A DNA stretch of 64,000 bases from Niallia alba (GTDB lineage Bacteria; Bacillota; Bacilli; Bacillales; Cytobacillaceae): the NCBI RefSeq assembly GCF_012933555.1, contig NZ_JABBPK010000001.1:3326001-3390000 (forward strand), written 5' to 3'. How positions within the stretch are numbered: the stretch's first letter is position 1; the number at the start of each line of letters is the position of its first letter. The position numbers were made by a program, and so were the translations under genes. Under the pieces are notes generated by a model. That model was not told the origin of the DNA. It saw nothing but the letters and a program-made list of their open reading frames with translations, and made no database searches. Shown here piece after piece: positions 3,586 to 63,313 of this stretch.

Positions 3586-3667
3586 AAAGCTGTTCACTTT
3601 CCCACAGGAGTCTACACATATTTCTAAATTCCTCCTATTGAAAACAACAATCCTTTTAAAAACAGCC
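3586..3667 (+). repeat. Decayed copy of the GGCTGTTTT inverted-repeat element
   Basis: The segment holds a degenerate left end (AGCTGTT), the internal word CCCACAGGAGTCTAC, and the conserved right end AACAACAATCCTTTT...AAAACAGCC. These match the element at 31228-31436, but the middle ~120 bp are missing. TTTTAAA-type runs flank both sides, an imperfect relic of a target duplication. It lies between yqzL and era. Confidence 0.6.
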
Positions 3668-16672: not shown

Positions 16673-16866
16673 TGCGAAATGAAGAGCAAGCATGTTTGAA
16701 AGTAAAAATAAGATTGGTTTGGAGAGGAGTCCGCTCGACTCCTATGGGAGCTGCGAGAAAGTCCAAGACCCCGCAGGAACTTAAGAAGCGAGGAGGCATG
16801 GTGCTCGCCCCATGGAAAGCGAAGTGTATTTAGGCTGCGGCTGATCACCACAAACCTTCTTTCTTA
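16673..16866 (-). repeat. Diverged copy of the GGCTGTTTT element, inverted
   Basis: Read on the minus strand, it contains CCGCAGCC, AATACACTTCGCTTTCC, GGGGTCT and CATAGGAGTC in the same order as the elements at 31228 and 62423, with many substitutions. The terminal GGCTGTTTT arms are not recognisable. An apparent 69-codon ORF through it is a by-product of the repeat. Confidence 0.65.
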
Positions 16867-25825: not shown

Positions 25826-25987
25826 GGCTGTTTTCGTAACGTTTGTTGCTATTACCTGCAGCCGAAATACACTTCGCTTTCCGTGGGGATCGCGCTAATC
25901 CCATAGGAGTCTACGTGTATTCCGGCTGCTCCATTTTCCAACTAATTCTTTTTTTCTATAGAAAAAAGAATTTGAGCAAATACAACT
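25826..25987 (+). repeat. GGCTGTTTT-family element next to dnaJ
   Basis: It starts GGCTGTTTTCGTAACGTTTGTTG and carries CGCTTTCCGTGGGG, ATCCCATAGGAGTCTACGTG and TTCCGGCTGCTCCATTTTCC, as in the copies at 31228 and 62423, with a shorter middle. The right terminal repeat is decayed. The flanks TTGATTAT (25818-25825) and CTGATTAT (25988-25995) form a 7/8 target duplication, and the right copy contains the dnaJ stop codon. Confidence 0.8.
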
Positions 25988-29898: not shown

Positions 29899-30927
29899 TT
29901 ACTTTTGATACAAATTAGTAAGTACTTTTGTTAGGTCATTTGATAAAATATTTAATAAGCTTATAACCCTTGAATATTCCATTCTTGTTGGACCAAGAAT
30001 AGCGATTGAACCAATTTGTTCATCCCCGATACTATAGGAAGCGGAGATAATACTGCAATTTTCCATTGCGGTGTTATTATTCTCTCTTCCAATTTTAATG
30101 CTAATATCAGATGAGTTATTGCGAATGAGCTCTGGAATCCCATCCTCTTTTTCAATCATATTCAATAAATTTCTTATTTTCGTAATATCATGAAATTCAG
30201 GTTGACTTAAAATATTTGTTTTCCCACCAAAAAATAATTTTTCATGGGTATCAATTTTCACTGTTTCTGAAAGTGAGTTGATAAAATACTCATAATTACT
30301 AATATGTTGTTTCAATAAGAAAGCTACTTCCTTATAAATCTTGTTATGAAGCTTGTCAATTGAAACTCCCATTAGCCGTTCATTCAAAATATTAACCAAT
30401 TTCTCTATTTCCCCTGCATGGATAGAATCAGGTAAATGAAACATTCTGTTCTCTACATGGCCTGAATCTGTCACAATAATGGCGATTGCCGTATGGTTGT
30501 TCAAAGGGACAATTTGAATTTTCTTCAACTTGTTTTCCTTAACGGCAGGTCCAAGGACAATAGTAGTATAGTTTGTTAAATCAGACAATATTTTAGCAGA
30601 TTTTTGCACAATATTTTCTAATTCATAAATTTTTTCTGCAAATAATGAGTTAATCCTCATAATATCTGAACGCTTTAATTTCTGTGGTGATAATAGATGA
30701 TCAACATAAAAACGATATCCCTTTTCTGAGGGTACACGCCCTGAAGAAGAGTGCGTTTTTTCTATAAATCCAGACTCCTCTAAATCAGCCATTTCATTAC
30801 GGATGGTAGCGGAGCTAAACGTGATGTTTTCTTTCTTCGATAAGCTCCTTGAGCCTACGGGTTGTGCTGTTGAAATAAAATCATCAATAATCACTTGTAA
30901 TATTAATAATTGACGATCAGTTAACAC
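29899..30927 (-). CDS. hrcA: Heat-inducible repressor HrcA
   Basis: HrcA represses class I heat-shock operons by binding CIRCE, and it needs GroEL for activity. The 342-residue protein has a winged-helix N-terminus ([26 protein letters not shown]) and a GAF-like C-terminal domain. The best start is GTG at 30927, six bases after AGAGGTG, which matches homologues beginning ML-TDRQLL. A longer ATG reading from 30948 overlaps the CIRCE arm and is unlikely. Confidence 0.95.
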
Positions 30928-30941
30928 ATTAATCACCTCTG

Positions 30942-30968
30942 TTAGCACTCTTTATTAACGAGTGCTAA
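30942..30968 (-). promoter_or_regulatory. CIRCE operator
   Basis: TTAGCACTC, a 9-nt spacer and GAGTGCTAA form the perfect CIRCE consensus between the promoter and the hrcA start codon. HrcA binding here autoregulates hrcA-grpE-dnaK-dnaJ. Confidence 0.98.
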
Positions 30969-30978
30969 ATCTATATAT

Positions 30979-31008
30979 AAAGTAGCAAAAACAAAGGGTC
31001 TGTGTCAA
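30979..31008 (-). promoter_or_regulatory. Promoter of the hrcA operon
   Basis: TTGACA (31003-31008), an 18-nt spacer and TACTTT (30979-30984) lie directly upstream of CIRCE. The -10 is imperfect, and an alternative TATATA lies a few bases downstream. Confidence 0.65.
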
Positions 31009-31227
31009 TAATTTGGTCCTTTTTTCTGCAAGAAATTTTTACCTTCTAGTCAACCTAGACATTGAATTGCTTTTTATCTCTTTACTAGTTACTAAAAATA
31101 CACTCCGTTCAAGTAAGAAGAATGTTAAACACTTCGTTATCTACCTTTATGCAGCCCACTCTGTATTTCTTCTTTTACAACCAACACATTTTTAAAACCC
31201 AAAAATAAGTTAGGTTTCTTTTCTAAA

Positions 31228-31436
31228 GGCTGTTTTAGTAAAGTTTGTTGCGATTACCCGCAGCCGGAATACACTTCGCTTTCCGTGGGGCTAAGCTTAA
31301 GCCTCCTCAGCTTCGCCTCCGGGGTCTCAGACTGTCTCGCTAATCCCACAGGAGTCTACGTATATTCCGGCTGCTCCATTTTTCCAACTAATTCTTTTTT
31401 CCTATTGAAAAAACAACAATCCTTTAGAAAACAGCC
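31228..31436 (+). repeat. Complete GGCTGTTTT-family miniature inverted-repeat element
   Basis: This 209-bp element begins GGCTGTTTTAGTAAAGTTTG and ends in the imperfect complement ATCCTTTAGAAAACAGCC. It is flanked by an exact 8-bp direct repeat, TTTCTAAA (31220-31227 and 31437-31444). It has no coding capacity; inner arms such as CGGAATACACTTCGC and TATATTCCGGCTGC give further stem potential. It sits between hemW and the hrcA promoter. Confidence 0.88.
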
Positions 31437-31457
31437 TTTCTAAATAAAGAGACTTCA

Positions 31458-32600
31458 TTACTTAAGCACTCCAATAAAGGATTGAAAAACTTCATTCCCC
31501 AAAAATCTGCCCTTATCGGTTAATCTCAAATATCCATCCTCGATTTCAATAAGCTCTCGACTAATTAGCCCCTTTATTTCTTTATCAAAAAGCTGTAATA
31601 GATTTTGATTATATTTTTCTTCAAAAGATAGTAAACTTACCCCTTTGTTTTTTCTTAATCCAAGGAATAATTCTTCTTCCATTTGTTCTACGACTGTTAC
31701 TTCGTGTTCGTGCATAAGTGGAAACTCGCCTTGTTCTAATGGCTGCATATATTTTTTTAATGGCCCATAATTAGAGTATCGGTTCTTACCTACATAACCG
31801 TGTGAGCCTGCTCCAAACCCAAAATACTCTGTATTATTCCAGTATGTGAGATTATGACGACTTTCAAAACCAGGTTTCGCAAAATTACTAATCTCATATT
31901 GTTGAAAACCGTGATTTGCCATCTCCTCCATTAATACGCCATACATGCTTGCTTCCACATCTTCACCAGGTGTAGGTAGTTTCCCCTTCCGCATCAAATT
32001 ATAAAAAACAGTTTTTGGCTCTATAATCAGGGAGTATCCTGAATAGTGCTGGATATCTAGTGTAAATGCTGTATTTAAGGTTTCTTGAAAATCTTCCAAT
32101 GTTTGTCCAGGCAAACTATAAATTAAGTCTACACTTATATTATCAAACCCAATCTTTTTTGCAGATTCGATGGATGAAAACACCTCTTCAGCCTTATGAG
32201 TTCTACCAATCCTCTGTAATAGCTCGTTATTAAAAGATTGAACACCGAAACTTAAACGGTTGACGCCTCCCTCATAAAGAGCCTTTAATTTATCTTCTGT
32301 TAAATCCCCAGGATTTGCTTCAAAGGTATATTCTATTTCTGGATGAACTTTAAGTTCTCTATTAATAATTCCACAAAGTCGTTCCAATTGAGGTGCAGTT
32401 AAACTTGTTGGTGTTCCTCCCCCGACAAAAATCGTAGAAAGCTTTTGTTCCCCATATTTTTCAATGGTTAACTTCATTTCTTTCTCTAGAGAATCGAGGT
32501 ATTCATCTACTGGCTGTCCTTTTAAAAACACTTTATTAAAATCACAATAGTGACAAATATGCTCACAAAATGGAATATGGATATATGCTGCTTGTATCAA
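31458..32600 (-). CDS. hemW: Radical SAM heme chaperone HemW
   Basis: HemW is a 380-residue radical-SAM protein related to HemN. It acts as a heme chaperone rather than coproporphyrinogen oxidase. The cluster motif is CEHICHYCDF (residues ~13-22), followed by GGGTPTSL and FGVQSFNNELLQRIGR. A C-terminal HemN domain follows. The TTG start at 32600 is consistent with homologues beginning AYIHIPFCEH. It follows lepA. Confidence 0.94.
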   Translation of the reverse strand: MIQAAYIHIPFCEHICHYCDFNKVFLKGQPVDEYLDSLEKEMKLTIEKYGEQKLSTIFVGGGTPTSLTAPQLERLCGIINRELKVHPEIEYTFEANPGDLTEDKLKALYEGGVNRLSFGVQSFNNELLQRIGRTHKAEEVFSSIESAKKIGFDNISVDLIYSLPGQTLEDFQETLNTAFTLDIQHYSGYSLIIEPKTVFYNLMRKGKLPTPGEDVEASMYGVLMEEMANHGFQQYEISNFAKPGFESRHNLTYWNNTEYFGFGAGSHGYVGKNRYSNYGPLKKYMQPLEQGEFPLMHEHEVTVVEQMEEELFLGLRKNKGVSLLSFEEKYNQNLLQLFDKEIKGLISRELIEIEDGYLRLTDKGRFLGNEVFQSFIGVLK

Positions 32601-62272: not shown

Positions 62273-62422
62273 ACTCTACACCCCCCTTTTATTCTTACCT
62301 TATTTACAAGAAATTTCGTTCCATCCATAAATTACTTCCGTTCCAACTATTCTTAGTGATTTACTAGTGTTTAGAGATGAAGAAGGGCGAAATACTCCCC
62401 TTCTTTATCTCTTTTTAAATTT

Positions 62423-62620
62423 GGCTGTTTTTCGTAAAGTTTGTTGCGCTTACCCGCAGCCGGAATACACTTCGCTTTCCGTGGGGCTAACCTTGAGCCT
62501 CCGGGGTCTCAGACTGTCTCGCTAATCCCCGTGGCGTCTACGTGTATTCAGTCTGCTCCATTTTTCCAACTAATTCTTTTTTTCGATGGAAAAACAACAA
62601 TCCTTTAGAAGAAAACAACC
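62423..62620 (+). repeat. Complete GGCTGTTTT-family element between mtnN and mccA
   Basis: This 198-bp element begins GGCTGTTTTTCGTAAAGTTTG and ends in the imperfect complement TCCTTTAGAAGAAAACAACC. It is flanked by exact 8-bp duplications TTAAATTT (62415-62422 and 62621-62628). The right copy includes the mtnN stop codon. The rest of 62273-62422 holds no gene and no clear promoter for mccA. Confidence 0.88.
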
Positions 62621-63313
62621 TTAAATTTTATCAACGATTCCCATTACTAAATTTGCTGAATGTACAGCAGCTTTTTCTAAGTATTGGTCAAAAGATAGAT
62701 GGGATTCCTTCCCAGCAATATCTGATAAAGAGCGTATAATTACAAATGGTATATTGTATTGATAGGCAACCTGAGCGATGGCTGCTGCTTCCATTTCAAC
62801 AGCTTGCAGATTTTCGAATTTCGATTTTATAAACGCTGCTTTTTCTGGCTGATTAATAAACGAGTCACCAGTTGTAATCAATCCTGTTACTACTGTATGA
62901 TTACCAATTTCTTTTGCACTTTGTTCTGCAACAGCAATTAGTTTTTCATTTGCCTTAAAACTTGCTGGCATTTGTGGGACTTGCCCGTATTCATAGCCGA
63001 AAATAGTAGCATCTACATCATGATGACGCACTTCATTCGAAATGACAACATCTCCTACTTCTAGCTCAGGATTCAACCCTCCTGCTGAACCAGTATTAAT
63101 GAGATAATCTGGCTTAAATGTTTGAAGAAGAATTGTGGTACTCATCGCTGCATTGACTTTCCCTATACCTGAGCGAAGTAAGACAACTTCTTTTCCAAAT
63201 AATTCGCCTTCAATAAATTGAAATCCAACGACTGTGTGTTCTTTCTTATTTACTATTTTTTCGCGTAATAAAGTTACTTCTTCTTCCATTGCACCGATTA
63301 TTGCGATTTTCAA
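62621..63313 (-). CDS. mtnN: 5'-methylthioadenosine/S-adenosylhomocysteine nucleosidase
   Basis: MtnN cleaves MTA and SAH, releasing adenine; it clears SAH so that homocysteine can enter trans-sulfuration. The 230-residue protein shows IGAMEEEV (residues ~6-13), [18 protein letters not shown] and [13 protein letters not shown] with the catalytic Asp in SLSDIAG. The start is TTG behind AGAGG. A mobile repeat directly follows its stop codon. Confidence 0.95.

Follow-up and report, generated by a model that had tools for sequence, protein, structure and literature searches.

The IS1595 family of insertion sequences (IS) generates target duplications of 8 bp that are A/T-rich, according to passages in two papers (PMC12561309, PMC8101967). 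An IS1595-related MITE has been listed with ISHwa6 of Haloquadratum walsbyi, the table entry giving 165 bp, seven copies, an IR of 25 and a DR of 8 (PMC3852290). In Bacillus, bcr1 is a short B. cereus repeat present in up to 130 copies, which according to passages of the source is confined to the B. cereus group and associated with a TTTAT motif (PMC6542083).

The element analysed here lies in a 64,000-nucleotide stretch of the Niallia alba genome, the whole of which is called the window. It resembles the H. walsbyi MITE in being short and IS1595-type, with inverted ends and an 8-bp duplication; however, that MITE has an archaeal host and far fewer copies, and the two are likened by a table entry, not by sequence (PMC3852290). 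The bcr repeats of Bacillus are likewise short and high-copy, but here there are 8-bp duplications and a class-wide core, a distinction drawn from the passages describing bcr1 and not from its sequence (PMC6542083). IS1595 elements proper (NF033547, PF12762) share with the MITE the 8-bp A/T-rich duplications described in the passages cited above and, within its own taxonomic family, similar ends. They encode a transposase, whereas the MITE has none and carries a hairpin core instead. Open-licence PMC papers, in which four fixed strings stood for the core words, yielded no description of the core or the element.

The first-pass annotation had described a 209-bp element with an exact 8-bp target duplication, and both its position (31228-31436) and the flanking TTTCTAAA repeats were confirmed. 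The element has GGCTGTTTT at its left end and AAAACAGCC at its right end. It is located between an ORF at 29899-30948 (- strand), which we take to be hrcA, with a CIRCE-like repeat, and the end of an ORF at 31458-32600 (- strand), presumably hemW. The element lacks a transposase gene and contains no ORF of ≥ 60 aa. Short ORFs (71 to 111 aa) overlap 13 other copies among 30 loci (the ORF-overlap row for copy L026 falls outside its element), and a transposase, at 335 aa, is far longer. The arms of the core hairpin, taken from the inverted-repeat listing of the window, are 31260-31289 and 31345-31374, and a covariance model of the core matches 31252-31383 on the + strand (46.7 bits). Both strands of the element fold more strongly than shuffled sequences (z of -5.6 and -5.1). 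Three further copies of the MITE, one of them a remnant, and a separate copy of the core are present elsewhere in the window (Table 1).

Table 1. Features of the element and of related copies in the 64-kb window
Feature	Position	Strand	Basis or remark
Target duplication, left copy TTTCTAAA	31220..31227	.	Sequence and direct-repeat listing
Left terminal inverted repeat GGCTGTTTTAGTAAAGTTTGTTGC	31228..31251	+	Consensus of 46 copies GGCTGTTTTCGTAAAGTTTGTTGC
Inner core, imperfect hairpin GCAGCCGGAATA...TATTCCGGCTGC around CTTCGCTTTCCGTGGGG...CCCACAGGAGTC; order-wide structured module	31260..31374	+	Inverted arms and model match
A/T-rich right arm, lowest conservation of the segments (46 aligned copies)	31375..31412	+	
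Right terminal inverted repeat, GGCTGTTTTCTAAAGGATTGTTGT as the - strand reads	31413..31436	-	
Target duplication, right copy TTTCTAAA	31437..31444	.	Sequence and direct-repeat listing
Second MITE copy	62423..62620	+	Exact 8-bp duplication TTAAATTT, 62415-62422 and 62621-62628
Third MITE copy, shortened, right end decayed	25826..25987	+	Duplication 7/8 if the end is placed here
Core copy within a different repeat family	16710..16841	-	Model R1, 47.7 bits
MITE copy remnant, right end only	3633..3667	+	

The MITE is abundant in its own genome (5.24 Mb). At least 40 matches spanning most of the element (89 to 100% identity) and one 35-bp fragment were found, 40 of 338 first-look candidates having been scored. 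In 30 of these loci the 8-bp duplication was exact in 17, matched at 7/8 in three, at 6/8 in three and at ≤ 3/8 in seven. The left end (23 bp, ≤ 3 mismatches) occurs 126 times, compared with 0 for a reversed-pattern control, and 90 of these copies were read (the 30 from the element search and 60 fetched afterwards). A right end is recognizable in 63 of the 90 and absent in 27. The duplication is exact in 34 of the two-ended copies, 7/8 in eight, 6/8 in six and ≤ 5/8 in 15; thus a genome-wide search for the ends with flanking 8-bp repeats, as had been proposed, recovered duplications matching at 7-8/8 in 42/63 two-ended copies (42/90 of those read). These 42 duplications are A/T at 315/336 bases, the first half being T-rich and the second A-rich. 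Among plasmid records, two match the MITE query, and a query with 30 bases of the end gave short matches in 20.

In two MITE copies (L022, G000:C1:564222, and L023, G000:C1:1293561; see also loci L333 and L334) the right terminal repeat is interrupted by an IS that is putatively IS110-like, judged by the start of its transposase. The break is at the identical base and in the identical direction in both. Beyond the IS the terminal bases of the MITE resume, followed by the target duplication, which matches at 8/8 in L023 and 7/8 in L022. This resembles site-specific insertion at the end of the MITE.

An empty site in relatives, suggested as a check on transposition, was readable at another copy and not at the locus itself. 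At L027 (G000:C1:2301390) the genome reads target-MITE-target, and the joined flanks align unbroken in four relatives (G001, G002, G004 and G010) at 86 to 88% and also match G006 (71%). At the junctions used, those of G002, G004 and G010 with the G001 row set aside, only one target is present, TTTATTTT in G002 and CTTATTTT in G004 and G010. At hrcA-hemW, four close relatives (hrcA 91 to 92%) lack the element, since their unaligned gap of < 100 bp is too short to hold it; the spacer has diverged too far for an exact empty allele to be read there, the comparison of the joint leaving out a wrongly oriented G004 row. Taken together, the many copies, the exact 8-bp duplications and the uninterrupted site at L027 bear out the original view of a transposed, non-autonomous element, here one of a large family.

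The ends and duplications had been expected to help in naming the partner transposase, and they led to the IS1595 class. The IS1595 domain PF12762 is present in 9/13 genomes of the genus. A transposase of this family from the genus (NF033547, with an IS1/IS1595 Zn domain) matched 109/193 genomes when searched across the taxonomic family, including four matches in the N. alba genome. Thirty IS1595 loci were fetched, of which 15 have ends with an exact 8-bp duplication, 14 have none and one is chance-like. In ten of the 30 the ends match one or other MITE end at 20-23/24 and are flanked by an exact 8-bp duplication (three of the ten share one transposase in three genomes, and in one the gene is interrupted by a stop). 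Another five have GGCTCTGTTAAA-type ends, matching those of the MITE at 13-14/24. The best IS (L171), with ends GGCTGTTTTCGTAAAGTTTGTTGT, matches at 23/24 at one end and 21/24 at the other. By BLAST, MITE and IS ends gave rows of 22 to 48 bp at 79 to 88% with weak E-values (best 6e-5). Because IS1595 ends match at 20-23/24 with exact 8-bp duplications, the MITE ends belong with the IS1595 group of the genus and related genera. Among the 30 loci there was no IS with identical ends, and none with MITE-matching ends was found in the N. alba genome, where the two stronger of the four transposase matches were examined. Those two elements have GGCTCTGTTAAA or GGCTCTGTTTAA ends and exact 8-bp duplications, and were rejected as direct partners (14/24 end match for L195, with ends of the same kind in L031). 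A cognate IS in the same genome is not required, as a MITE whose partner was lost needs none. In three IS1595 elements of the genus (L151, L154 and L161) a second ORF of 154 to 178 aa runs on the opposite strand and, by eye, encodes a lipoprotein-like or DinB-like product, so that these look like ISs with passenger genes.

The ISL3, IS6 and IS256 families also give 8-bp target duplications, and one of them might have moved the MITE in place of IS1595. This is highly improbable: IS1595 elements carry ends similar to those of the MITE, and ISL3 (PF01610), the one of these three families searched, is present in only 3/13 genomes of the genus and absent from that of N. alba, with no convincing ends at 11 ISL3 loci, some of which are cut by contig ends.

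From the similar ends, duplications, copies and empty site, the element is very probably a MITE that an IS1595-family DDE transposase moved in trans, transposition itself being inferred; this high confidence extends to the MITE and its IS1595 assignment only. The transposase would recognize GGCTGTTTTCGTAAAGTTTGTTGC-type ends of about 24 bp, and insertion into an A/T-rich site by an 8-bp staggered cut would leave the 8-bp duplications. Between its ends the MITE carries a hairpin core of about 115 bp. Many Bacilli have this core, which is shared with other IS1595-type MITEs and a GAGGCTGGGACA-ended repeat and has kept its pairing through changes on both sides.

The core is the unusual part of the MITE. 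All 13 genomes of the genus match the element, several through its inner part alone. An 89-base core query matched 262/397 genomes of the order (91/136 genera), and the covariance model, under stricter filters, found the core in 104/398 genomes of the class (35/146 genera), other orders included. The impression that the inner words are widespread in intergenic DNA of Bacillaceae is borne out by this distribution. In the N. alba genome the model matched at least 132 places (150 of 984 candidates were scored), and in some other genomes first-look candidates number in hundreds. Eight plasmid records contain the core (three from Priestia, two from Peribacillus and one each from Niallia, Bacillus and Brochothrix); phage records gave no match at an E-value of 1e-3.

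GG..CC ends with a 7-8/8 duplication surround 28/105 core places, compared with 0/390 random places in the same loci; the 28 comprise 18/34 in the N. alba genome, 7/33 in the genus, 3/35 in the order and 0/3 at hrcA loci. In the order-wide set, IS1595-like ends were present on both sides at 7/35 core places (7/493 random places) and GAGGCTGGGACATAA-like ends at 5/35 (0/493), one place being in both counts. The 3/35 order-wide places picked out above, where the test for ends plus duplication was strict, are the loci L244, L246 and L250, each with full GGCT ends and an exact duplication. Among core copies outside the genus, an intact MITE setting was thus seen at only a few. Inverted pairs of cores, about 200 bp or less apart, are present in L115, L116, L117, L127, L129 and L138.

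In addition to IS1595-type MITEs, the core occurs in another repeat, whose ends are GAGGCTGGGACA; the two have the same core and different ends. In the N. alba genome this repeat is about 570 bp long and present in 14 copies (L313-L322 and L324-L327) at 97 to 99% identity, so it has apparently multiplied there recently. Each of the 14 copies has two inverted core matches, the second of which sits, by eye, in a nested, decayed IS1595-type MITE. The repeat may be an IS1182-type element. In three copies in which both flanks were read, the bases on the two sides complement each other, as would follow from insertion into a palindrome. Judged by its carriers and range, the core is an independent module that reaches beyond this MITE family.

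Conservation of the predicted fold was examined in an order-wide set of 32 core copies. Of 39 predicted pairs, 18 have changed on both sides with pairing kept, and 96.9% of cells are paired. Shuffles of the alignment gave a mean of 5.8 pairs with two-sided changes and none of 500 was as high as observed, but shuffles overstate covariation because the copies are related. Slid structures gave four to eight such pairs, with 43 to 54% of cells paired. The unpaired internal columns have a mean conservation of 0.889 (n = 22), compared with 0.913 for paired columns (n = 78), and 8/22 are invariant in all 32 copies. Within the N. alba genome, identity to the consensus over 46 copies was 0.849 for the core, 0.951 and 0.926 for the ends and 0.797 for the A/T arm, the copies having been picked by their ends, which favours end identity. 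Core decay with kept ends fits a part that serves the spread of the element more than it serves the host at individual sites.

The core also shows signs of direction. With neighbouring genes taken as ORFs of ≥ 100 aa, both neighbours are on the MITE - strand in 43 of the 90 copies read and on its + strand in 15; the remainder comprise 15 convergent, 15 divergent and two without neighbours. This 43:15 bias (P = 0.0003) is 37:13 at 150 aa (P = 0.0009). The order set has a ratio of 14:4 (P = 0.03) with the 100-aa limit and of 15:4 (P = 0.02) with that of 150 aa. Among wobble-like intermediates in 81 distinct core rows, counted at pairs with a Watson-Crick majority, there are 62 A-C and 38 G-U cells, so that mismatches able to wobble on the strand opposite the window + strand exceed those able to do so on the other by 62:38 (P = 0.02). 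Both biases are leads, cells and copies being related.

These biases, together with the two-sided changes at core pairs, would be accounted for if the core were a structured RNA module on the strand opposite the window + strand, active when read through from the neighbouring gene and predicted, for example, to shape mRNA 3' ends or stability. Such a role is nonetheless unlikely. The cells and copies behind the ratios are not independent, the ratio is 12:5 in the order set at 70 aa (P = 0.14) and 11:4 in the genus set (P = 0.12), and the core copies of the N. alba genome have decayed almost as far as the A/T arm (0.849 versus 0.797). Moreover, a consensus scan for intrinsic terminators found no terminator-like site at the MITE (0 in 30800-31700, with a mean of 0.5 in shuffles), and no Rfam 15 family reached its gathering score, either in the window or in the 20 order loci (of 30) that were scanned. 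The best sub-threshold Rfam match, at 14.5 bits against a gathering score of 50, is chance-like.

Pairing in the core could also be maintained by a mutational process, without selection. When strands switch within an imperfect palindrome, one arm can be corrected from the other, so that two-sided changes would require no function, and the core is a single long near-palindromic hairpin in a multicopy repeat, just the kind of structure on which this known process might copy one arm to the other. Correction should erase loops, however, and because the internal loops are about as conserved as the pairs, with 8/22 columns invariant, plain arm-to-arm correction is disfavoured and rather improbable as what keeps the pairing. 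The core might also, although this is less likely than not, be an undescribed structured nucleic-acid module of the class Bacilli, passed between MITE backbones, with a fold kept by selection as a one-strand RNA or as a DNA hairpin that mobile elements need. The likeliest reading, itself short of even odds, is that the core is retained as an aid to the spread or tolerance of its carriers, since individual copies decay within a genome whereas its shape persists in lineages throughout the order.

For Bacillaceae, the MITE offers a clean test system together with a partner class. Of greater importance is the core, a hairpin with compensatory changes that is found on two kinds of mobile backbone and in much of the Bacilli, and that may account for much of the intergenic repeat in these genomes. 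It poses the question of why different MITEs keep one folded insert, and the hairpin deserves follow-up for a role of its own.
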